A DNA stretch of 43,334 nucleotides, taken from assembly GCA_938038785.1 (NCBI GenBank), contig CALHTB010000084.1, positions 1 through 43,334 on the forward strand, read 5' to 3'. Shown here piece by piece: positions 5,004 to 19,211 of this stretch (positions are counted from its first letter, which is position 1; every line of letters begins with the position of its first letter). The position numbers and the translations under genes are program-made. The notes below the pieces were generated by a model. The model made no database searches, was not told the DNA's origin, and saw nothing but the letters and a program-made list of their open reading frames with translations. Source of the DNA: an uncultured Acidimicrobiales bacterium (lineage in GTDB: Bacteria; Actinomycetota; Acidimicrobiia; Acidimicrobiales; SHLQ01).

Positions 5004-7292
5004 TTAGCCGGCGAGATCTCCTACTACTGCTTGCACGTTGCGAAGCCCCTCGGCCAGCTGGTCGGCTAGCGACTTCAGCTCGGTTTCGGCGATGTCGACC
5101 TGGATGGGGATGTCGAGCTTTACCGGCACCTCGGCTTGAACCGGCACGGTCTCGTTGATCGGCACATCGACGTTGAGGTTGATCGGCACGTCGACCTTGA
5201 CTGGCACGTCGACCTTCACCGGTACCGAAACGTCAACCGGCACTTCAAACCCGAGTCCGGTGTCGATCTCGATAGTCGTGTCCACGGTTTGATCGATCGG
5301 CAAGGTCTCGTCGATAACCACCGTCTCGTCGATCGGGAACGTGAAGTCGCGGTCGATTGTGATTTCGGTGTCGATGACCACGGTCTCGTCGACCTTGACG
5401 TTGAACTCGAGCGAGGAGTTCGAGAAGTTCTCGAGCTCGGTGATTGCAGTGTTTAAGCCCTCGGATACCTGCGGTTCGAGCGCCGCGATCTGGCGCGAAA
5501 CCTCGAGCACCTGCGCCGAGACGATTGCCGAACCAGCGGCACCCTCCTCGACCTTGATCAACTGTTCCTGGGTCGACGCCAGCTCGTCCTGAGTTTCGTT
5601 CAAGGACCGCACCACCAGCCCAAGGGCGACGAGCGTGCCGAGCAACCCAATGCCCAACATGATCACGGCAGGTTTCAACCAGCCATCACCGCCCGCCCGT
5701 GGCGGGTCCTCGCCGCCGAAGCTGACGGGATTCTCCGCAAACGATTCGGTTGGAGTCTCGGAAGAAGACATGGGATTCACTCCTGTTGATGAAGAACGGG
5801 CAAAGAGCGCAGCGACCAACCCGAGGAAGGTCACGGCTGCAGCGGCAAGAAAGGTTTCAGATATTGCGTCGGCGGTAAGGCGAGCCGAAGCTTCGGTGAT
5901 GGCGGCTTCGAAGCCCGGGTCGGTGATCGAGGGCAGCTCGAGGCCCTGCCGAAGCTCGTTGAAGCGGGCAAGTCCCCACGCGGTCAGGCCAGCCAGCCCA
6001 ACACTGAGACCCACGAGACGAACGATCATGACGATGGCTGCGGCCGCACCACGTTGGTGAGGCGGCGACGCATCAACCACCGTCGCGGTGGTTGGGGCGA
6101 ACACCAGCCCCAGCCCTGCGCCAAGTAGGGCGAGCTGGGACGCGCCAACCCAATAGCTGAGCTCGGGGTCCCACGTAAGGCCCATCAGCAACAGGGCGGC
6201 CGATGCCGAAGCCATCCCGAGGATTGTCGGCGTGCGATAGGGGAAGCGCTCGGCGAGCCGCCCGCCAATCCAAGACGCCACCGCCATTGCGGCGGTCAGC
6301 GCGGCCAGGATCCAGCCGGCGAGCACCGCAGAACGCTCGAGGTTGACTTCGATTGCGTTCACGAAGATCGGCACATCGACCATGGCGATAACAAGAGCCG
6401 CACCGACCAACAAGTTCACGAGCAGTGCGATACGAAGGTTCCGGCCGCGGAAGAACGCCGGATCGATCAGCGGGTCGGTTGCGCGACGCTGATGCCAGAC
6501 GAACATGCCCCCAAGAACGAGCGCAACCGGAAACAGCAGCCGGAAGTCAAACCCGCTACCGCCCTGTAATTCGTCCAAGCCAGAAACGCTCTGAATCTCG
6601 GCATTGCCCAACAGCGCAAGGTCGAGGGCGATGAGGGTAAGCGCCAGCAACACTGCGCCGGTCCAATCGACACGATTCGACCGTTCCTCACGCGCCTCAT
6701 CAACTTCGGCGAGCGCCCACCACGACAACGCCAACCCAACGAGGGCAAGTGGAATGTTCAGCCAGAACTGCCATCGCCAATCGAGGTAGCGGACAAGCAA
6801 CGCCCCATACAGCGGACCCCACACCCAGCCCATCGTCTCGATCGCACCCAAGTTGCCCAAGGCCCGAGCTCGCCGGTCCTCATCAAACACGTCTCCAACA
6901 ACGGCCAGCGCAACGGGCACCATCGCACCGCCGCCGATGGCGGTGAGAACTCGTCCGATAAGAAACGGTGTCATCGTCGATGACAGCGGAATCACGATCG
7001 TGCCCACGAGGAACACGAGATAGGCCAAGATGAACAGCATTCGGCGGCCGATGACATCGCTGAGCCGTCCGGCCAGCGGCATCACCGAGACGAACGCAAT
7101 GAGATACACATTGACGATCCAGGCCGCGTCATCGAGTCCATCGGGCAGCGTAAGCCCGAGATCGTTGATTATCGGCCGGAGCATCGTGGTGACGACCGTG
7201 AGGTCGTCGGCCGCGACAAAGACCGCAAAGCCCACCACCCACAAAATGGCTGTGGGTGACGCAGCGCGACGGCTAGCCGTAGATGTCGTCAC
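5004..7292 (-). CDS. P55-like MFS exporter fused to a helix, coiled coil and VPV-repeat domain
   Basis: 762 residues. Residues 1-507 are a DHA2-type MFS transporter of about 14 helices, with the motif A-like GRLSDVIGRR and the VPVALAVVGDVFDEDRRARALG region. Then come a hydrophilic stretch, a further membrane helix (about 538-560), a probable coiled coil (about 562-620), and about 110 residues of strand-like repeats rich in VPVKVD, IDETVVID and VPINLN (about 625-735), ending in an amphipathic helix. The GTG start overlaps the lipoprotein stop (GTGA). The pairing with an LprG-like lipoprotein matches the mycobacterial LprG-P55 operon, which moves triacylated lipids across the envelope. I infer that the extension lies outside the membrane on the lipoprotein's side. 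Residue 508 is a Met with its own ribosome site, so a separate shorter product is possible. Substrate unknown. Confidence 0.8.
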   Translation of the reverse strand: MTTSTASRRAASPTAILWVVGFAVFVAADDLTVVTTMLRPIINDLGLTLPDGLDDAAWIVNVYLIAFVSVMPLAGRLSDVIGRRMLFILAYLVFLVGTIVIPLSSTMTPFLIGRVLTAIGGGAMVPVALAVVGDVFDEDRRARALGNLGAIETMGWVWGPLYGALLVRYLDWRWQFWLNIPLALVGLALSWWALAEVDEAREERSNRVDWTGAVLLALTLIALDLALLGNAEIQSVSGLDELQGGSGFDFRLLFPVALVLGGMFVWHQRRATDPLIDPAFFRGRNLRIALLVNLLVGAALVIAMVDVPIFVNAIEVNLERSAVLAGWILAALTAAMAVASWIGGRLAERFPYRTPTILGMASASAALLLMGLTWDPELSYWVGASQLALLGAGLGLVFAPTTATVVDASPPHQRGAAAAIVMIVRLVGLSVGLAGLTAWGLARFNELRQGLELPSITDPGFEAAITEASARLTADAISETFLAAAAVTFLGLVAALFARSSSTGVNPMSSSETPTESFAENPVSFGGEDPPRAGGDGWLKPAVIMLGIGLLGTLVALGLVVRSLNETQDELASTQEQLIKVEEGAAGSAIVSAQVLEVSRQIAALEPQVSEGLNTAITELENFSNSSLEFNVKVDETVVIDTEITIDRDFTFPIDETVVIDETLPIDQTVDTTIEIDTGLGFEVPVDVSVPVKVDVPVKVDVPINLNVDVPINETVPVQAEVPVKLDIPIQVDIAETELKSLADQLAEGLRNVQAVVGDLAG
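5184..5222 (-). repeat. 18-bp tandem repeats in the VPV domain
   Basis: Two near-identical 18-bp units, each containing GGCACGTCGACCTT, encode successive VPVKVD hexapeptides. Degenerate units continue on both sides, showing that the extension grew by in-frame duplication. Confidence 0.6.
5771..5784 (-). promoter_or_regulatory. Internal Shine-Dalgarno and ATG within the MFS fusion
   Basis: AGGAGTG (5778-5784) lies 6 nt before an in-frame ATG at 5771, exactly where the MFS domain ends. The start would give a 255-residue protein: a helix, coiled coil and VPV repeats. Either two genes fused and kept the old start, or both products are made. Confidence 0.55.
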
Positions 7293-8026
7293 TCGACGGG
7301 TGGAACGATCTCGAAGGTCTCACCAAAGTCGAACAGCTCGAGCTTCCAATCGCTCGTTGCGCCATCGAACACGGTCGAGAACTCCATCGAGGCCACCTCG
7401 CCGGTTACCGGGTCAAGCCACAGATCGAGGTCGACGTCTTGGTTTCGCACTAGCCCGGCGGTTACCGCTTGAATGCGTTCGGAGCCGGCCGTTGCGGTGA
7501 GGTGATAGCGGGTTGAACCGCCGCGGCTTTCTTCAGCCACGAACACCACGTCACGCAGCTCGGCGATCAACGGCTGCCAACCGCCCTTCGGGTCGAAGAA
7601 CTGACTCGGGTCGATATCGAAGCCCGGCGGCAGTGTTTCGAAGTTGCCCGTGACCGGATTCGAGAGCCACACCTCGTCGTCGATGGCCACAGCGCCAAGC
7701 TTGGTGTTGAGCGATTCGTTTACCGAAACCTGCAAGATTGCGTCGGCCGAACCGGGAACGATGAACCGACCCTCGAGCAGATCAAGGGCGATCACCGACG
7801 CCGGATCGATAAAGACCGGTGCACCAGTTCGTTCGAGAGTAAACCGCACGCTTTCAACCGCAGCCATCGCCTCGGAGCTCGTCAACTGCAACGCTGCAAC
7901 GTCGCCCGTGGCGAGCTTGTCCGCCGCGTCAGGCTCGGGGGTGGTATCGCCACCACTGCTACACGCGCCGAGCGCGAGCAATGCAACGAGCGAAATACCA
8001 AGGGTCAGCCAAAGCCGAAATTTCAT
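7289..8026 (-). CDS. LprG/LppX-like envelope lipoprotein
   Basis: This 245-residue protein has a lipoprotein signal: MKFRLWLTLGISLVALLALG, then A21 and C22 (lipobox LGAC), followed by a Ser/Gly/Thr-rich tether. The mature part resembles the LppX/LprAFG fold: an N-terminal 'SSEAMAAVESVRFTLERTG' helix-strand start, repeated beta strands, and the WLDPVTGEVASMEFSTVFDGATSDWKL region typical of the family. Known members bind lipids in a hydrophobic cavity and work with a P55 MFS transporter, whose homologue follows with a 4-base overlap. ATG 8026 is chosen because MKFRL begins a normal signal peptide; GTG 8035 is the alternative. It probably carries a lipid between membrane and outer envelope, though no mycomembrane is expected here. 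Confidence 0.8.
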   Translation of the reverse strand: MKFRLWLTLGISLVALLALGACSSGGDTTPEPDAADKLATGDVAALQLTSSEAMAAVESVRFTLERTGAPVFIDPASVIALDLLEGRFIVPGSADAILQVSVNESLNTKLGAVAIDDEVWLSNPVTGNFETLPPGFDIDPSQFFDPKGGWQPLIAELRDVVFVAEESRGGSTRYHLTATAGSERIQAVTAGLVRNQDVDLDLWLDPVTGEVASMEFSTVFDGATSDWKLELFDFGETFEIVPPVE

Positions 8027-8043
8027 GTTTGCCACGCTAGTGG

Positions 8044-9054
8044 CTATTGGATATCGGCCTCGATCACGACCTTGTTTCGGCCGCTCTCCTTCGCCTTCGC
8101 CAGCGCCGCGTCTGCGGCTTCGATGAGCGATTCGGTCTGGTCCGCTGGAGCTTCAGCGATACCGATCGACATCGTCACCCGTCCGGTCGGCTGCACTTCG
8201 CCACCCTCGAAGTCGGTCGACTCGACGGCCTTACGAATACGTTCGACGACGGCGTAGCCGTTCTCAACGGATGCTCCTGGAAGTAGTGCCACGAACTTGA
8301 CGCCGCTATAGCGATAGACAACATCGGTGCCACGCAAGTTGCTGGCGATCAGTTCTGCGATCGAGCGAAGAACCTCGTTGCCGGCCTGCTTACCGTGAGC
8401 TTCGTTGTAATAGCGGAAGTCGTCGATGTCGAACATCGCAAGAGACACCGGGATCTTCTCTTCACCCGATTCGGCGACAACATCGGCGAGGTCGGTGTCG
8501 AAACGGCGACGGTTGCCGACACCGGTCAAGCCGTCGAAATCGACCTTTGCGCCGCCGGATCGGGCCGCAGCGCGGGCCAGACGATCTTGTGGCTTCTTGG
8601 TCTGTCGATTGGCATACGACTCGGTGACGTACCGAGCGAGCGCACTAAGCGTCTCTTTGTGGCCGCCATCAGCGGCGATCAGCCCAACAACGGCACCGTC
8701 ATGCATGATCGGGTGAGCAACGATGCTCTTCTGCTTCACCATTGCGTGGGTACGACTCAGCCGAATCACGGTCTCGGACTCAATGGTGAGTGGCTTCCCG
8801 CTTCGAGCGTCGTGCTCGTCCAGAGAAATGAACGCACCCTCAGCGCCCAGCAATTCCTCCATTTGGAGGGCAGTTTCAGCACAGAGTGCGTCGACCGTGG
8901 GGGCTTTCAGGATGTTGTCTTTCGCAGCCCGCAACTGCGCTTCGGTCGGCTCGATTGCTGCGCTCCGCTTGCGCTTGTTCGATCCATAGACCATAACGAT
9001 GAGGCCGCAAACGATGGCGAGAACGCCGGCGACCAAGAAAATGGGCTCTATCAC
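8044..9054 (-). CDS. Membrane GAF-GGDEF protein with degenerate catalytic site
   Basis: 336 residues. One N-terminal membrane helix (about 4-24), a GAF-like region (about 50-150) and a GGDEF domain (about 170-335). The family motif DGLTGVGNRRRF is present (174-185), as is FDIDDF (208-213). The signature GG(D/E)EF is SGVKF at 250-254, and the usual N-D-x-x-G-H-x-x-G-D stretch is N-E-A-H-G-K-Q-A-G-N. The inhibitory-site RxxD is kept as R241-D244, exactly five residues before SGVKF. Diguanylate cyclase activity is therefore unlikely; a c-di-GMP or GTP sensor role is plausible. The GTG start lies close after a GAGAGA stretch. It sits between pmbA and the lipoprotein gene on the same strand. Confidence 0.85.
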   Translation of the reverse strand: MIEPIFLVAGVLAIVCGLIVMVYGSNKRKRSAAIEPTEAQLRAAKDNILKAPTVDALCAETALQMEELLGAEGAFISLDEHDARSGKPLTIESETVIRLSRTHAMVKQKSIVAHPIMHDGAVVGLIAADGGHKETLSALARYVTESYANRQTKKPQDRLARAAARSGGAKVDFDGLTGVGNRRRFDTDLADVVAESGEEKIPVSLAMFDIDDFRYYNEAHGKQAGNEVLRSIAELIASNLRGTDVVYRYSGVKFVALLPGASVENGYAVVERIRKAVESTDFEGGEVQPTGRVTMSIGIAEAPADQTESLIEAADAALAKAKESGRNKVVIEADIQ

Positions 9055-9117: not shown

Positions 9118-10458
9118 CTAGGAGCCGCTCATAGTCACGTCGGCAATAACCAGGCTTACGCCCGCAGCCGACATCGGCAACCAGTCGACGTCGCTACCCA
9201 CAGCCTGAATATCGCCCAGCATCCGCTGCAAGGTCGACGCAATGGTGATTTCGCGAAGTGGCTCACCCAGGGCGCCGTTGCGAATCCGCAGGCCTTCAGC
9301 GCCGGTGGAGAAATCGCCACTGACCGGATTGACCCCCGAGTGGATTCCCGAGACGCCTTGGATCAACACGCCATTGTCGATTCCCGCAATGAGCTCGTTT
9401 TGGCTTTGCGTCCCCGGCTCGAGGAAGAGGGCGCGTGTTCCGACCCGCGGCACCGACGAGTAACTGCGCACCGCCGACCCGGTAGATGAGGTATCCATCC
9501 GACGGCCCGTGTAGGCGTTGTGAACAAACGAATTCAAACGCCCCTTCTCGACCAGCACGTTTCGTCGAGATGCCAGGCCCTCGCCGTCGGTCTCGCCAGC
9601 GGTGAACGCGTCGGTATTGGTTGGGTCGTCGATAAGCGTGAATAGCGGCGACGCGACGTCGTCGTTCATCCGGTCGGCGAACAGCGAGTAGCCCTTGAAG
9701 ACTGCATCGCCATCCATGGTTCCACCGAGGATCCCCAAGAACTGCGCGGTGACAAACGGGTCGAACACGATGGTGAGCCGTTCGCTCTCGGGTTGGGTCG
9801 CCCCGAGAAGCCGAGTGGCTCGATCAGCCGCGTCGCTGGCGGCCTTGCCAACGTCGAGGGCGTTTGGGTCGCGGCCCACGCTGAAGCCAAACCCGATCTG
9901 GGTATCGCCATCCTCTTCGGCCAACGCCGTGACGGTGACATACGAGCCCGATTCGCGGCTAGTTGACTCGATGCCCGCGGTCGACACGATGGCGCTCTCA
10001 CTGATCGAGTCGACATAGTCCGCAGATTCGATACCGGAAATTCGTGGGTCGCCCCCAAGGGTCTTCGCTTCGAGATCGATGGCCAGCGCGATCTTTGCAT
10101 CGGTGGCCATGGTGTCGACGCGCTCGTCAAAGAGGCCGAGAGCGGGAACGGCCACGCCGTCAGGTTCGGCCAGTCCGAGGAACTCATCGGGCGTGCCAAA
10201 GGCCGCGTTGTCACGGGCTTCGGCAAGGGTTTCGGCAAGCACGTCCTCGTCGAGTGAACCGGCATAGGCGAAGCCCTGCCGGTTGTCTCGCAAGACGCGG
10301 ACGCCAACACCTTGGGACTCACTTGCGGTGAATTGTTCGATTTCGCCGCCATACACACGGATCTCGGTGTCGCGCTCGTGAACAGCAACGACTTCGACGG
10401 CTTCATGGTCATCAGCCCAGCCAACGACCTTCTTGGCGATCGACAACAGGTCGGCCAT
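9118..10458 (-). CDS. pmbA: TldD/PmbA family protein, PmbA (TldE) type
   Basis: This 446-residue protein is the partner of the TldD metalloprotease. It lacks the HExxxH motif carried by TldD but has the family fold: an N-terminal substrate domain, then the FDPFVTAQFLGILGGTMDGDAVFKG region, and a C-terminal VSGIHSGVNPVSGDFSTGAEGLRIRNG motif. In E. coli the TldD-TldE heterodimer degrades unfolded peptides and matures microcin B17. Its ATG has GAAGGAGAG directly upstream. tldD lies 65 bp upstream on the same strand, so the two probably form one transcript. Confidence 0.92.
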   Translation of the reverse strand: MADLLSIAKKVVGWADDHEAVEVVAVHERDTEIRVYGGEIEQFTASESQGVGVRVLRDNRQGFAYAGSLDEDVLAETLAEARDNAAFGTPDEFLGLAEPDGVAVPALGLFDERVDTMATDAKIALAIDLEAKTLGGDPRISGIESADYVDSISESAIVSTAGIESTSRESGSYVTVTALAEEDGDTQIGFGFSVGRDPNALDVGKAASDAADRATRLLGATQPESERLTIVFDPFVTAQFLGILGGTMDGDAVFKGYSLFADRMNDDVASPLFTLIDDPTNTDAFTAGETDGEGLASRRNVLVEKGRLNSFVHNAYTGRRMDTSSTGSAVRSYSSVPRVGTRALFLEPGTQSQNELIAGIDNGVLIQGVSGIHSGVNPVSGDFSTGAEGLRIRNGALGEPLREITIASTLQRMLGDIQAVGSDVDWLPMSAAGVSLVIADVTMSGS

Positions 10459-10523: not shown

Positions 10524-11915
10524 CTAGGCCGCGGTACCACCGACGGTCATGCTGGTTACTCGAAGCGTTGGGGTGCCATCGCCTACAGGCACGCCTTGGC
10601 CGTCCTTGCCGCAGGTGCCGGGGTGGCCCATGGCGAAGTCGTTGCCCAATGCATCAATGCGGTTGAGGACCTCGGGCCCGTTGCCGATGAGGTTGCCCTC
10701 GCGAATCGGGTCGGTGATCTTGCCATCTTCAATGAGGTAGGCCTCGGTCATTCCGAACACGAAGTCGCCGGTGGCGGTGTTGACCTGCCCGCCGCCGAGC
10801 TGGGCGACGTAGATGCCGTTTGGCGTGGAAGCGATGATGTCGGCGGGGTTGTCCTCGCCGCCGGTGATGTAGGTGTTGGTCATGCGGACCATCGGCAGAT
10901 GCTGGTAGCTCTGACGGCGGCCATTGCCCGAAGACGGACGGCCTTCCTTACGTGCCCGAATCTGGTCGTACATGTAGTCGGTGAGAATGCCGTCTTGGAT
11001 CAACACGTTGCGCTGGGCGGGACGCCCTTCGTCATCGATAGCGAAATTGCCCCACTCGGCCGACATCGTGCCGTCGTCGATGAGGGTGACGAGCGGGCTT
11101 GCGACCTGCTCGCCCATTCGCCCGGCAAAGACCGATGCCGACTTTGCTACGAGGTCGGCTTCGAGGCCGTGGCCACACGCTTCATGGAACAGCACGCCGC
11201 CACCGCCGGGGCCAACGACCACGGTCTGGGCGCCACTTGGGGCCGGACGGGCGCTGAGCTTGGTGATGGCGCGGTTTGCTGCAACGCGAGCCATCTCGGA
11301 CACGTCATGGTGATCAAAGGTTTCAAAGCCGACGGTGCGCCCGTGGCTCTCGCGGCCGGTTTGCATACCGGTGTCGCCAACGGCAACACAGTTGATCGAG
11401 AACAGGGTGCGGACTTGGTCGTCGCCAGCGAGAAGACCATCGGAGTTGGCAACCAAGATCTTGCGGCGGCTGTCGCCGTAGCGGGCGCTGACCTGCGAAA
11501 TTGCGTCGCCGGTGGATCGGGCAGCCTCGTCGGCGCGTTGGAGCAGTTCGACCTTGGTGGCCTTGGCAACGGTCTCGGGGAACGTCTCGACCTCGATGTC
11601 GCGGCTGGCGTGTTGACGTTCGAGGGTGACCTTACGAACTCCACCGCCACCACCGCGGGCCGCTGCGGCAGCTGCCTCGGCGGCCTTACGCAACCCGTCT
11701 TCGCTGAGGTCGGCGGTGTGAGCAAAGCCGGTGGTATCGCCCGAGACAACGCGGATTCCCGCACCTCGATCGCGGCCAGAGGTGAGCTCCTCGATCTTGC
11801 CATCATCGAGAAACGCTGATGAGTTGCGCTTGTCTTCAACGAAGACCTCGGCAAAATCGGCACCTCCAAGAAGCGCGGTATCGAGAGTGGAAGCTACGAG
11901 GGCGTCATCGAGCAC
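10524..11915 (-). CDS. tldD: Zinc metalloprotease TldD
   Basis: 463 residues from GTG 11915. The zinc-binding HEACGH motif is at 244-249 (VLFHEACGHGLEADL), with the downstream GNFAIDDEGRPAQRNVLIQDGILTDYM and C-terminal NPADIIASTPNGIYVAQLGGGQVNTATGDFVFG segments typical of TldD. It is the catalytic half of the TldD-PmbA peptidase, acting in the cytoplasm. The start is uncertain: TTG 11933 is in frame, but GTG 11915 has GAAAGG about 10 nt upstream and a TAACTA box at 11936-11941 would place the transcript start between them. First gene of a co-directional run reaching paaK. Confidence 0.92.
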   Translation of the reverse strand: MLDDALVASTLDTALLGGADFAEVFVEDKRNSSAFLDDGKIEELTSGRDRGAGIRVVSGDTTGFAHTADLSEDGLRKAAEAAAAAARGGGGGVRKVTLERQHASRDIEVETFPETVAKATKVELLQRADEAARSTGDAISQVSARYGDSRRKILVANSDGLLAGDDQVRTLFSINCVAVGDTGMQTGRESHGRTVGFETFDHHDVSEMARVAANRAITKLSARPAPSGAQTVVVGPGGGGVLFHEACGHGLEADLVAKSASVFAGRMGEQVASPLVTLIDDGTMSAEWGNFAIDDEGRPAQRNVLIQDGILTDYMYDQIRARKEGRPSSGNGRRQSYQHLPMVRMTNTYITGGEDNPADIIASTPNGIYVAQLGGGQVNTATGDFVFGMTEAYLIEDGKITDPIREGNLIGNGPEVLNRIDALGNDFAMGHPGTCGKDGQGVPVGDGTPTLRVTSMTVGGTAA

Positions 11916-12006
11916 GTTCGACCAACCTTTCAAGGTAGTTATCCAATGTATCGACCTACTTCGGTCTCGGTTGACAAAATGCCCGGAGTCGGGCCCTCCC
12001 GGGTTC

Positions 12007-12575: not shown

Positions 12576-14939
12576 TCAGCCGTTTATGTGAAACAGTGCG
12601 ACGCCGTTTCGGCTTACGCGATCGGCGGTGGTCATTGCTCCGCCAACGATGAGGCCGTGCGGGGTGACGCGAACTGCGTCTAGACCTCGCACCGAGTCGA
12701 CGTCGGGGTCCCACGCAATGATCTCACCTGTGGTGGCGTCAACTGCGGTGACCTTCTCGTACGCCACGTGGGTATCGGGGTAGGTATCAGCATCGGGGGG
12801 CACGAAGCCTGGCACGTAGGTGCCCGAAGATTCGTAGTGTCCGCCCAAGATGACCATGTTGTGTTCGATGTCGACGTCGCACGCTTGGATGCCGCCATCG
12901 GTTGTTGGCCCCCACGGGGTTCCGTTGACCATCGCCGCAGCGCCGGTCTGCAGGTCGAACTTGCCGTGGTTGAACTGATTGGGGCGAGGTTGGATCTTTG
13001 AACGCTGCCCGAACCAGTTGCCTGGATCGACATTTGGATCGGCGGCGCCACCATCGTGGTCGTAGGCAGTCCAGGTCAGACCTGGCGTTGGCGAGATGAC
13101 CCACCAATCGCCGCACGCCAAGATCGAACCGTCTGGCATCAGCGCCACATCTTTGATCTGCGGGATTGGGTCGGTGCCCACATTGTTGTCGCCGATGCTC
13201 GGTGCGAAATCGGTGAGCGTCCCGGTGGCGAGGTCGAATGCTGCCAGCGAGTTGCGAGGCTGGCCGTCGATGGTTTGGAAGGAACCGCCGACGACGAGGG
13301 TGTTGTCGACCACTTTGAGGGCGAGGACAACTGCGAACGGATCGTCGTTGCCGAGGCCGATCGTGGCTTGCACGTTCGGGCGGAATTCGGCGTCGGTCGT
13401 GCCGGTGGCTCCGTCGCCAATTGCGATGCGAATGAGGCGGTTTGCCGGAGCGTCGTCGGCCAGGCGCACGCCTCCACCGACGTACAACCAGTTGTCGTGG
13501 GCGGTCAGCGCCGACACACTGCCGCGAATGTTGGGGCGCCAGGTGGGGTCGATGGCACCGGTTCTCGGATCGACGCGAATGAGCGAGACCGCGTTCTCGG
13601 CAAACTCCTCGGGACGGGCTTGGTCGCCAAACGCGCGCTCAGCAATGCGGAACTTTCCGCCGACGTAGAGCCACGTGCCGTCGTAGGCCAGTGCCCGAAC
13701 TCGTTCGTTCAGCACGGCGTTCCCCTGTGGCGTCATCGACGCGATCTCGATCGGGATGTCGAGGTTGGTGACGGTTCCGTTGGTGAGGTCGCAACCAAAC
13801 ACGCCCGCACGGGCGAGCCCGGGCTGATCGTCGTCGCCGTCGACCGGCGCGTTGAAGGCGGTATTGAACCGGCCCCCGAAGACGGCTGTTGGCGTGCCGT
13901 CGATATCGAATTGTTCAATCGCCCTGATCCACAACGCCGACAGGTTCGGCGGGTCGTTCGGGCCGCGCTCGACTATTTCGCCGTTGCGGGCAATGCGTGT
14001 CTCGTCGGCAGCCTCAGTGCGACACATCAACGCGCTTGTCGAAGGTCGGATCGGCGTGTCGTGGGCCTTGCATTCATCGCGCAATGCCCATTCAACAGCA
14101 CCGATAAACAGCGATATACCGTCGCCCGTGTACGACGCTTCGCTCGAGCCGTTCGACGGGAACGCAACCCGACATGCAACGGCCGTATCGCTCGAATCGA
14201 GATAGGCCCAGCCCAGCGAGTCGCCAGGCTCGAACGCCAACATCGCGGCACCGTCGGGGCCAGCGCCAACTACCGCGGCAGCGCCATCGCCGGCACCCCT
14301 GGCCGCTGGACCGCGGCCCACCGAGTACTCGCCGAAGGTAAACAGCCGCACACCCGGGCTGGTGTCGGCGGTGCGGCGGGCGTTGAGACGGTCGGTTATT
14401 GGGTGGCTTCGATCTACGGCGATCGACTGCACGCGTTGCAATGGAGTGGTGGCATCAGCGGCGGGTGTGGTGAGTCCAAGCGCGTTCCAGTTCGCGGGCT
14501 TCATTGCAATGATCGGAACGGCGGCCTTCAGGTAGAACGGCTGGAACTTCTGGCTTGTGGTCGAGGCGGTGATGATGACCAAGTCGGCGTCTTGGAGGTG
14601 TTCGGGTTCGACCTCGTCGTCATCGACGACCAAGAGGTCGGTGAAACCGCTGAGCACCGAAGCCAGCTGTAGTTCGACCCGATTCGCGCCCGTGAGAATG
14701 CTGAACACACCCTTGCCCGGCTGGGCCTTAAAGACGCCGTCGTCAAGATCCTCGACGACGAGAAGTACCTGCGGGCGGGGCTCGGGCTGGGGGTCTTGTT
14801 CTTCGTCGCCAGCGTCGCCATGGTCTTGGGCAGCAGCTGGTGCGGGTGCCATTGCGATAACCGCGGCCGACAGCGCAATGGTTGCTATCGCCAGGACCGC
14901 GAGGATGAACTTGTTCACGCCGCCCCACTGATTCGCCAC
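12576..14939 (-). CDS. Secreted beta-propeller protein (delta-60-like repeats)
   Basis: 787 residues. A signal peptide or anchor is visible at about 9-38 (NKFILAVLAIATIALSAAVI then AAAQ), followed by an acidic linker. Residues about 55-290 look like a Rossmann-type ThuA/GATase-like domain (VLLVVEDLDDGVF, DLLVVDDDEV, DLVIITAS). The rest holds repeated blade units of the form WLYVGGKF...N.VSLIRVDPRTGAID..WRPN, typical of delta-60 and related propellers. It probably acts outside the cell; ligand unknown. The GTG start at 14939 has TAGAGT 7 nt upstream and no ribosome site (leaderless type); GTG 14918 is an alternative. Divergent from dxs. Confidence 0.7.
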   Translation of the reverse strand: MANQWGGVNKFILAVLAIATIALSAAVIAMAPAPAAAQDHGDAGDEEQDPQPEPRPQVLLVVEDLDDGVFKAQPGKGVFSILTGANRVELQLASVLSGFTDLLVVDDDEVEPEHLQDADLVIITASTTSQKFQPFYLKAAVPIIAMKPANWNALGLTTPAADATTPLQRVQSIAVDRSHPITDRLNARRTADTSPGVRLFTFGEYSVGRGPAARGAGDGAAAVVGAGPDGAAMLAFEPGDSLGWAYLDSSDTAVACRVAFPSNGSSEASYTGDGISLFIGAVEWALRDECKAHDTPIRPSTSALMCRTEAADETRIARNGEIVERGPNDPPNLSALWIRAIEQFDIDGTPTAVFGGRFNTAFNAPVDGDDDQPGLARAGVFGCDLTNGTVTNLDIPIEIASMTPQGNAVLNERVRALAYDGTWLYVGGKFRIAERAFGDQARPEEFAENAVSLIRVDPRTGAIDPTWRPNIRGSVSALTAHDNWLYVGGGVRLADDAPANRLIRIAIGDGATGTTDAEFRPNVQATIGLGNDDPFAVVLALKVVDNTLVVGGSFQTIDGQPRNSLAAFDLATGTLTDFAPSIGDNNVGTDPIPQIKDVALMPDGSILACGDWWVISPTPGLTWTAYDHDGGAADPNVDPGNWFGQRSKIQPRPNQFNHGKFDLQTGAAAMVNGTPWGPTTDGGIQACDVDIEHNMVILGGHYESSGTYVPGFVPPDADTYPDTHVAYEKVTAVDATTGEIIAWDPDVDSVRGLDAVRVTPHGLIVGGAMTTADRVSRNGVALFHING

Positions 14940-17558: not shown

Positions 17559-19211
17559 CTATTCTCCCGAAAGCGGAACTTGGATCAGGCGAGGGCGTTC
17601 AAAATCGAGCTGCACAATGGCGTACTCCGCGGTCGCCACAAGCAGCTGCGCAAACTCTCCGCCAAGCACCGGTAGGTCTTGAACGACGAGACCATCAGGG
17701 CCGATGAACACCCATCGGTTTCCAGTTGAGCCCATGAGCAACGACGCATCTGTAGTTGATGACCATTGGGCAAATCGGAGCTCGCTGGCGCCGCCGAATG
17801 CCACAAATTCCCAGTCGGTGTACGGCTCGGAAGCACGAAGAACGCCTGGTGCCGAGTTCGGTCCACCGGAGGTTCCGATGATGAGGGCCTCACCGTTTGG
17901 AGCTCGAGCGATCACAAGACCTCCGGTCGCGGCGAAGTCGGCCTCGAGATTCGACGGTCCGTCTTCGAAGGTGGTGCGCGTCAGCGTCCAATCGTTTAGC
18001 GAGCTAGGCACTGAGCCCGTAAGGCAAAACGAGTTGGGTGCGCTCCCAAATCCACTCGTGATGTACGTACTGCCAAAAAGCCTTCCGAAGCCTATGAACT
18101 CTTGGTCGAGCCGATGCGACACGCTGGGGCCAGCTACACCATCGGTTCCTCGCTGCTGCAGATACAAGACCTGGGACTGCTCGGCTTGCGCCCGAAGATC
18201 GTTCACGCAGTTCGTGATGAAGCCTTGGTCGCGAAACAGCTGAGGCGCGTCCTCCTCGAGCAGGTCGCCGAGCAGGTTTCGGTCGCAGTCGTACAGTGAC
18301 GCAACTTGGGCGCCACGGTCGGTGGAGTGTTCGACCAAACACACCTGCCGGGCCCGCTGAGGCTGCAACGCTCCGTCGAAGAACTCGACCAACTCGTCGT
18401 AGGGAGGTGCGTCATCTGCGGTGAGCGTCGGCATCGCCACAGCGTCGGCTCCGATCTCGACGAAGAACACGACGCCCTCGCCAACGATTGGGGCAAAGTC
18501 GGTGGAGGGTTCCCACGTCGATCCGTTGGTCGTCTCGAAGAAACGGATGTCGAACGGTGTAGTGAGTTGTTCATCGCTGAGCTCCACCGTTGACAGGTCG
18601 AAGGCCGTCTCAACATTGACCGCTGCGACGAGTCGGTTATCGACGTTGCCGAGGCCAATGACCGCACCGGGTTGCGCGAGCGTTGTCACTGACTCCCAAG
18701 CCAACCCATCGGGCGAGGTAACCAGTGAGGTTCCGCCGCCATCGAAGCTGAGGGCATAGAGCTGAGAGCCAAGCTGGCCATTCGTGAAGAGGAACCCGGG
18801 CGGCTCGGCCGACTCGTACGCCTCGAGCGGGAAGATTGGTTCACCAAGTTCGGACCGGTCTGGCAGTTCGGTGAGCAGCGTCGATGTCGGGATGGAGACT
18901 GCTTCATCGGTGCTGATTGTGGTTGTAGTGCTGGGTTCGGTTGTGGTGGGTTGGTTGGTCGTTGTTGCGGCACTGGTTTGCGGAGAAATGGGGGTGCCGT
19001 CAGCGGCCTCCCCAGATTCCGGAGCGAGCAGGTACAGGACCGCACCAACCAGCGCGCACACCGCAACTACCGAGGCGATAGCAAAACCGGGAGGGCGTGC
19101 ATCAGTAGAGCTCGGAGCGTCCGGCACTGGAGCGCCCGGCGACATACCGTCCACCTCGACTCGGACCGAGCGCGGCGCGCCGCCTTTTTCGCCTGATGGC
19201 CCAATGTCCAT
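17559..19211 (-). CDS. Membrane-anchored extracellular protein of unknown function
   Basis: 550 residues. A short cytoplasmic N-terminus, one membrane helix (about 42-64: GFAIASVVAVCALVGAVLYLLA), a Thr-rich linker (about 80-105), then a large extracellular domain with strand-turn patterns such as SFDGGGTSLVTSPDGLAWESV and FFETTNGSTWEPS, reminiscent of BNR/sialidase-like propeller blades. Four or five cysteines lie in the middle part and may form disulphides. I do not recognise a specific family. Similar anchored propeller-like proteins with Thr-rich stalks are common in Acidimicrobiia. The ATG has TACTCT 6 nt upstream and no ribosome site. Confidence 0.65.
   Translation of the reverse strand: MDIGPSGEKGGAPRSVRVEVDGMSPGAPVPDAPSSTDARPPGFAIASVVAVCALVGAVLYLLAPESGEAADGTPISPQTSAATTTNQPTTTEPSTTTTISTDEAVSIPTSTLLTELPDRSELGEPIFPLEAYESAEPPGFLFTNGQLGSQLYALSFDGGGTSLVTSPDGLAWESVTTLAQPGAVIGLGNVDNRLVAAVNVETAFDLSTVELSDEQLTTPFDIRFFETTNGSTWEPSTDFAPIVGEGVVFFVEIGADAVAMPTLTADDAPPYDELVEFFDGALQPQRARQVCLVEHSTDRGAQVASLYDCDRNLLGDLLEEDAPQLFRDQGFITNCVNDLRAQAEQSQVLYLQQRGTDGVAGPSVSHRLDQEFIGFGRLFGSTYITSGFGSAPNSFCLTGSVPSSLNDWTLTRTTFEDGPSNLEADFAATGGLVIARAPNGEALIIGTSGGPNSAPGVLRASEPYTDWEFVAFGGASELRFAQWSSTTDASLLMGSTGNRWVFIGPDGLVVQDLPVLGGEFAQLLVATAEYAIVQLDFERPRLIQVPLSGE

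Follow-up and report, generated by a model that had tools for sequence, protein, structure and literature searches.

What does a long C-terminal tail do on a transporter whose gene overlaps that of an LprG-like lipoprotein? The question is raised by a 43,334-nucleotide stretch of DNA from an uncultured Acidimicrobiales bacterium (contig CALHTB010000084.1 of assembly GCA_938038785.1; the whole stretch is called the window below), whose genome is 73% complete. Gene coordinates are positions in the window, on the minus strand. The lipoprotein gene runs from an ATG at 8026 to 7289, with a GTG at 8035 as alternative start of the 248-aa open reading frame (ORF; 7289-8035). Its stop overlaps the transporter start in a GTGA (7289-7292), which may couple the translation of the two. 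The downstream ORF (5004-7292) encodes a fused protein of 762 aa, in which residues 1-507 (5772-7292) form a major facilitator superfamily (MFS) transporter and residues 508-762 form a tail of 255 residues, comprising a hydrophobic helix, then a further helical segment, and finally some 105 residues that alternate between hydrophobic and polar. The tail was conserved with an LprG-like gene upstream and is probably also made as a free protein, and we tentatively read the whole as a three-part exporter of neutral lipids.

Transporter and lipoprotein

By sequence, the transporter part is a DHA2 MFS protein of the Rv1410 type, and its nearest solved relative is the triacylglyceride exporter MHAS2168. 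Residues 21-432 of the fused protein matched MFS_1 in Pfam, and the best PDB sequence match of the transporter was 8pnl (MHAS2168) with 190.5 bits, followed by EfpA with 87.7 bits. Functional residues were aligned in 45 transporters, 43 from tail loci and two without a tail. D29 in transmembrane (TM) helix 1, R114 in TM4 and R425 in TM11 were invariant (45/45) and aligned to columns D35, R118 and R426 of MHAS2168; position 152 in TM5 was acidic in every sequence (39 E, 6 D). An E157-R426 ion lock is described in a passage of PMC10576003 as conserved in 17 mycobacterial homologues. By alignment and from a model of the homologue L046, the stretch between TM11 and TM12 (5859-5966) lies where MHAS2168 carries its periplasmic helix extensions; it has about 39 residues in the window, and the L046 model has helices of 38 and 36 residues there. 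Passages of the same source state that these extensions guide triacylglyceride into LprG. An extended TM11-TM12 region is not exclusive to the Rv1410 type, QacA having a similar element (PMC10576003).

The upstream protein scored 45.5 bits against the LppX_LprAFG profile (PF07161; gathering cut-off 24) and was the only PF07161 match in its genome. A single-sequence search reached a solved LprG with an E-value of 0.54, so the assignment to the LppX/LprAFG family rests on the profile. The protein carries the lipobox LGAC, and a simple lipobox pattern was met in 30 of 41 LprG-like proteins, the window's included. Those of L024, L042, L048, L050, L056, L059, L060, L062 and L063 had no lipobox by this pattern and no Cys after the hydrophobic N-terminal stretch; they are thus possibly TM-anchored or secreted, not lipidated. 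In L051 and L052 the pattern failed, yet a Cys follows the hydrophobic stretch.

These results bear out much of a preliminary description of the locus, which had seen an LprG/P55-like pair of a GTGA-overlapping LprG/LppX-type lipoprotein and an MFS exporter. The extra helix and the alternating region that it had placed in residues 508-762 were likewise found, with a helical stretch in the place of its coiled coil; the alternating region has about 105 residues where about 110 had been claimed.

Conservation of the tail and gene arrangement

The window tail had no Pfam match at an E-value of 1. When 48 tails were searched at E 0.1, 21 families appeared, none of them in more than a few tails; DUF948, the commonest (6/48, best E 1.3e-4), was rejected as the tail family, the match being judged to reflect the TM or coil stretch. 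A fold search of the tail against the PDB gave no match at E 0.001; the five top ranks went to lysenin and phage tail proteins, whose TM-scores did not exceed 0.15. Among viral folds two matches reached E 0.001, but their TM-scores did not exceed 0.14. None of these was taken as homology. A plasmid search gave no match to the tail.

Among 198 genomes of the order, the tail search found 12, the window's included, one of which (G039) was rejected as a simple VP-repeat ORF. The tail profile gave 11 strong and eight weak matches in these genomes; the weak ones were left out of the counts, and the loci of three of them (G021, G104, G162) showed no tail match. Under a stricter limit, a 396-genome sample of the phylum gave three tail matches, all from the window's order and one of them the window's genome. 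A pattern-based scan of GTDB contigs yielded 47 tail loci. Forty-one (L027-L067) were treated as Acidimicrobiia, although a few of their records are titled only as Actinomycetes or as a bacterium, and six (L068-L073) are titled Chloroflexi or Anaerolineae. Tail identity to the window was 34-84% in the other 41 Acidimicrobiia rows and 18-30% in the six others. An LprG-like gene lay upstream in all 41 tail loci whose N-terminal region was complete; the count excludes L033, which is truncated, as well as L027 and L028, which lack the sequence. This pairing, together with the conservation in 41 other Acidimicrobiia rows, indicates that the tail is more than a chance extension.

In the six Chloroflexota loci the tail-like protein stands alone, as a TM plus hairpin-like protein of 195-257 aa, and the fetched flanks gave no MFS or LprG match to models derived from the window. 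The neighbours in L068 are an AMP-binding/reductase gene, a methyltransferase and a sulfotransferase.

Gene arrangement was compared in 44 loci (L027-L067, L023, L024 and the window), one of which, L027, is cut by a contig end. MFS and tail shared one open frame in 38 of 43 loci, and the tail was a separate gene in five (L024, L060, L062, L063 and L066). Two of the fused loci, L040 and L046, encode an LprG-MFS-tail triple fusion. A further TM helix is predicted to link its LprG and MFS parts (predicted local distance difference test, pLDDT, about 50), and this helix would keep both LprG and the tail outside. In a midpoint-rooted tree of 48 transporter sequences the deep branches were fused; two changes account for the split state and a single one for the triple fusion. 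Assembly error as the source of the fusion was ruled out by its presence in 38 of 43 loci, including L023 from a single-contig genome (G134).

PF07161 was matched in 23 of the 198 order genomes, namely the 11 with a strong tail match and 12 others, nine of which were examined (G039, G077 and G079 were not among the nine). G017 and G024 had related LprG-MFS pairs without a tail; G021, G069, G164 and G189 had a distant MFS and no tail; the PF07161 locus of G138 ends at a contig end; and G003 and G047 gave no match to the LprG or MFS models built here. The six tailless genomes rule out a tail in every LprG-MFS pair.

Probable internal start in the linker

Besides the fused form, a free form of the tail is probably produced from an internal start. 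Shortly before the tail TM helix, the window has an in-frame ATG at residue 508 (5769-5771), preceded at 8 nt by the Shine-Dalgarno core AGGAG (5780-5784), from which a free tail protein of 255 aa and about 26-27 kDa is predicted to begin. When GGAG, GAGG or AGGA was required 4-10 nt ahead of a linker ATG in frame (the strict rule), 29 of 38 fused genes had such a start, the near-identical pair L035/L036 being counted twice. Codon-shuffled linkers averaged 4.0 such genes over 2000 rounds and never gave more than 10. A core preceded 29 of 66 in-frame linker ATGs vs 1 of 19 in the other two frames, and 8 of 454 ATGs in the MFS part, where a slightly wider spacing was allowed. Relative to the codons the core takes two phases, 21 cases in one and 8 in the other, and the linker peptides that it overlies vary, which argues for selection on the nucleotides. 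Among the nine genes that fail the strict rule, seven keep a G-rich stretch before the linker ATG, as judged by eye; the linkers of L054 and L059 offer only GTG. All five separate tail genes had a candidate start with GGAG 6-7 nt ahead. For the transporter itself, a start codon preceded by a core of this kind was found near the N-terminal end in 11 of 43 cases, suggesting that the free tail may be made in excess.

Predicted fold of the tail and lipid context

The window tail was modelled by AlphaFold2 with the 48-sequence alignment, giving a mean pLDDT of 82.9 and block values of 81-96 over the arms described below. In tail numbering, the model has helices at 32-76 and 81-117, strands at 120-170 and 176-226, and a helix at 231-254. 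A 15th TM helix or signal anchor is placed at about residues 34-55 (5607-5672) from sequence and model together, followed by a predicted extracytoplasmic helix (81-117; 5421-5531). The two 51-residue strands are read as the arms of one giant hairpin (i + j about 346): arm 1 (5262-5414), a TGLGF tip (5247-5261) whose Gly174 is present in 42 of 42 rows, and arm 2 (5094-5246), with a proline about every six residues. A C-terminal helix (5010-5081) closes the model. At 3.3 Å per residue, we estimate the hairpin to be about 15-17 nm long.

The alignment agrees with the hairpin reading. Five of 48 sequences carry six additional residues in each arm, at the mirrored positions 152-157 (5301-5318) and 188-193 (5193-5210), and the other 43 have them in neither arm; the paired insertions may be one event, and AlphaFold2 saw the same alignment. 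Two strands, of 45 residues each, were again obtained for the triple fusion L046 from an alignment with 12 tail rows. Odd arm positions are hydrophobic in 42 rows, save polar exceptions at 129, 135, 141, 149, 155, 161 and 165 in arm 1 and at 207 and partly 213 in arm 2; the arm 2 prolines (178, 184, 190, 196, 204, 210, 216 and 222) lie on the opposite face. Since a lone two-stranded ribbon with one hydrophobic face would be unstable by itself, oligomers or a partner are expected.

Two WS/DGAT matches were found in the genome, and none to the EmbABC arabinosyltransferases or to MCE, suggesting, for a genome 73% complete, that the substrate could plausibly be a neutral lipid and that its target is unlikely to be a mycomembrane. 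The view in the preliminary description that the organism does not look like a mycolate producer is in line with this, and the constant pairing with LprG-like genes that it had named as a supporting sign was seen in all 41 testable loci. Its long amphipathic beta element was predicted to be ordered, at moderate confidence, as two long strands read as a hairpin and not as a grooved sheet. The built-in placing of the bridge it proposed would fit the 38 loci with a fused tail; in five the tail is a separate gene, and the tail is probably also made free. It had not included the conserved internal start with its Shine-Dalgarno core (5769-5784), the separate-tail loci or the triple fusions.

Proposed mechanism and alternatives

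The reading we put forward, with somewhat less than even confidence, is a three-part neutral-lipid exporter in which tail proteins assemble on the transporter as a hydrophobic rod or tube that crosses the envelope. The Rv1410-type DHA2 transporter, so assigned by homology, would extract a lipid, probably triacylglycerol or a wax ester, from the membrane and, as in the mycobacterial system, would hand it to the LprG-like lipoprotein. The third component would be a single-span membrane protein, predicted to expose a helix and one amphipathic beta-hairpin with arms of 45-51 residues. Judging from conservation, one gene in most lineages would yield two tail forms, fused and, via the internal ATG, free. 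Free copies would join the fused copy with their hydrophobic faces buried against each other, and the resulting rod or tube would reach through the envelope and receive or conduct lipid. A rod or tube on the transporter is suggested by the need for oligomers and by the pairing with LprG and transporter; the substrate, the oligomerisation and the conduction of lipid are what we infer. A more specific version appears unlikely: the 15-17 nm hairpins would form a hydrophobic-lined tube on the LprG/Rv1410-type transporter, the internal start would set the ratio of fused to free copies, and the whole would be a lipid conduit of a new class, spanning the envelope of bacteria in which an outer membrane may be missing.

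Several points weigh against this exporter. Neither an outer membrane nor an acceptor for the lipid is known in these bacteria. Use of the internal start is itself an inference from sequence, and the 38 fused genes are related and not independent, a kinship that the shuffles ignore. The tail model has a predicted template modelling score (pTM) of only 0.42, the hairpin blocks of the triple-fusion model have pLDDT values of 46-75, nearly all below 70, and AlphaFold2 may draw repetitive strands too long. The two arms are also unequal in the alignment of the six Chloroflexota rows, by 2-7 residues. Conserved E129, T135, R141, E207 and others lie on the hydrophobic face, where a pure lipid channel would not need them. 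In three of the 41 paired loci (L030, L035, L036) a gap of 567-616 nt separates the end of LprG from the MFS match, and the related pairs in G017 and G024 do without a tail. In the transporter, the TM5 acid of the mycobacterial ion lock is displaced, standing one position before E157. A fold search with L046 ranked 8pnl first by E-value, with a TM-score of 0.83 by target length, but EmrB, QacA and EfpA scored 0.82-0.84, so the fold alone does not discriminate the transporter type.

The conserved charges and threonine amid the hydrophobic face also favour a different role for the tails, which might bundle into a solid, hydrophobic-cored rod that passes no lipid and serves to anchor the transporter and LprG or to set their place with respect to the cell wall. 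The conserved tip, with Gly174 in all 42 rows, could dock a partner of such a stalk or spacer, and the Chloroflexota proteins occur with no MFS or LprG match in their fetched flanks. However, the pairing with a lipid-exporter relative in all 41 testable Acidimicrobiia loci and the two triple fusions suggest a role in a transport step, and we regard a purely mechanical function as rather unlikely.

It is quite improbable that only the fused protein matters and that the internal ATG with its Shine-Dalgarno core is a relic of a separate gene or an accident of base composition. The linker frame is open in 38 of 43 loci and the strict signal is missing in nine of 38 genes, as this explanation would have it; against it stand the 29 starts where 4.0 were expected, the variable linker peptides and two codon phases, and the G-rich stretch kept by seven of the nine exceptions (by eye). 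Moreover, with the fused state on the deep branches, a relic should have decayed. An EmrB/QacA/EfpA-type drug exporter with the tail as an EmrA-like adaptor would share the DHA2 fold, and the TM-scores are near-equal, but we consider it very improbable: by sequence, MHAS2168 leads the next match by over 100 bits, all 41 testable loci pair the transporter with an LprG-like gene, and HlyD/EmrA is not among the 21 families matched by any of the 48 tails at E 0.1.

Neighbouring genes

A GGDEF diguanylate cyclase gene (8044-9054) adjoins the exporter locus. Upstream of it lies a neighbouring pair of PmbA/TldD metallopeptidase genes (9118-10458 and 10524-11933, both minus strand). Two large minus-strand ORFs, 12576-14939 (787 aa) and 17559-19211 (550 aa), had no Pfam match at the curated cut-off.

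Comparison with known systems

A passage of PMC10576003 calls it unclear how Rv1410 and LprG take lipid through the inner membrane and then to the outer envelope. The locus offers a natural variant with a long hairpin beside the LprG-MFS pair, present as a single chain in two loci, and thus an environmental system for testing the lipid-transfer step; the conserved internal start would be an unusual way for one frame to make a transporter and extra copies of its appendage. No literature joining LprG and Acidimicrobi was found, and no title among the matches listed described such a transporter fusion, from which absence from print is not established.

The closest system is LprG-Rv1410 (P55), or MHAS2167-MHAS2168, which likewise has an LppX/LprAFG lipoprotein followed by a DHA2 MFS transporter, gave the best PDB sequence match, and shares the long TM11-TM12 stretch and the conserved TM1 Asp and TM11 Arg. 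The present system differs in its third, hairpin component, the conserved internal start, the LprG fusions in two loci, an ion-lock acid one residue away and the lack of an EmbABC match in the genome. The internal start itself resembles that of SctQ/HrcQ/Spa33, where, according to passages of PMC8553256 and PMC6925163, an in-frame internal start yields the C-terminal part, which joins the full-length protein; a 1:2 ratio of full-length to internal-start product is reported for Spa33 (PMC6925163), and HrcQ is given in Table 1 of PMC8553256 as two proteins (HrcQa, HrcQb) in one strain. Those are cytoplasmic parts of secretion systems with another function, and their second product is demonstrated, whereas that of the tail is predicted.

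EmrAB-TolC also combines a DHA2 transporter, as a monomer, with a single-span partner, an adaptor in six copies (PMC13139468), but the tails match no HlyD/EmrA family. In role, the proposed rod or tube is likened to the PD3 needle of the mycobacterial exporter MmpL5, whose 125-Å hairpins, according to a passage of PMC12346298, assemble into a channel of envelope-spanning length. The family and fold searches of the tail, the only tests made, gave no homology to PD3; the MmpL5 hairpins are helical and stand on an RND transporter, whereas the one predicted here would be a beta-hairpin on an MFS transporter.

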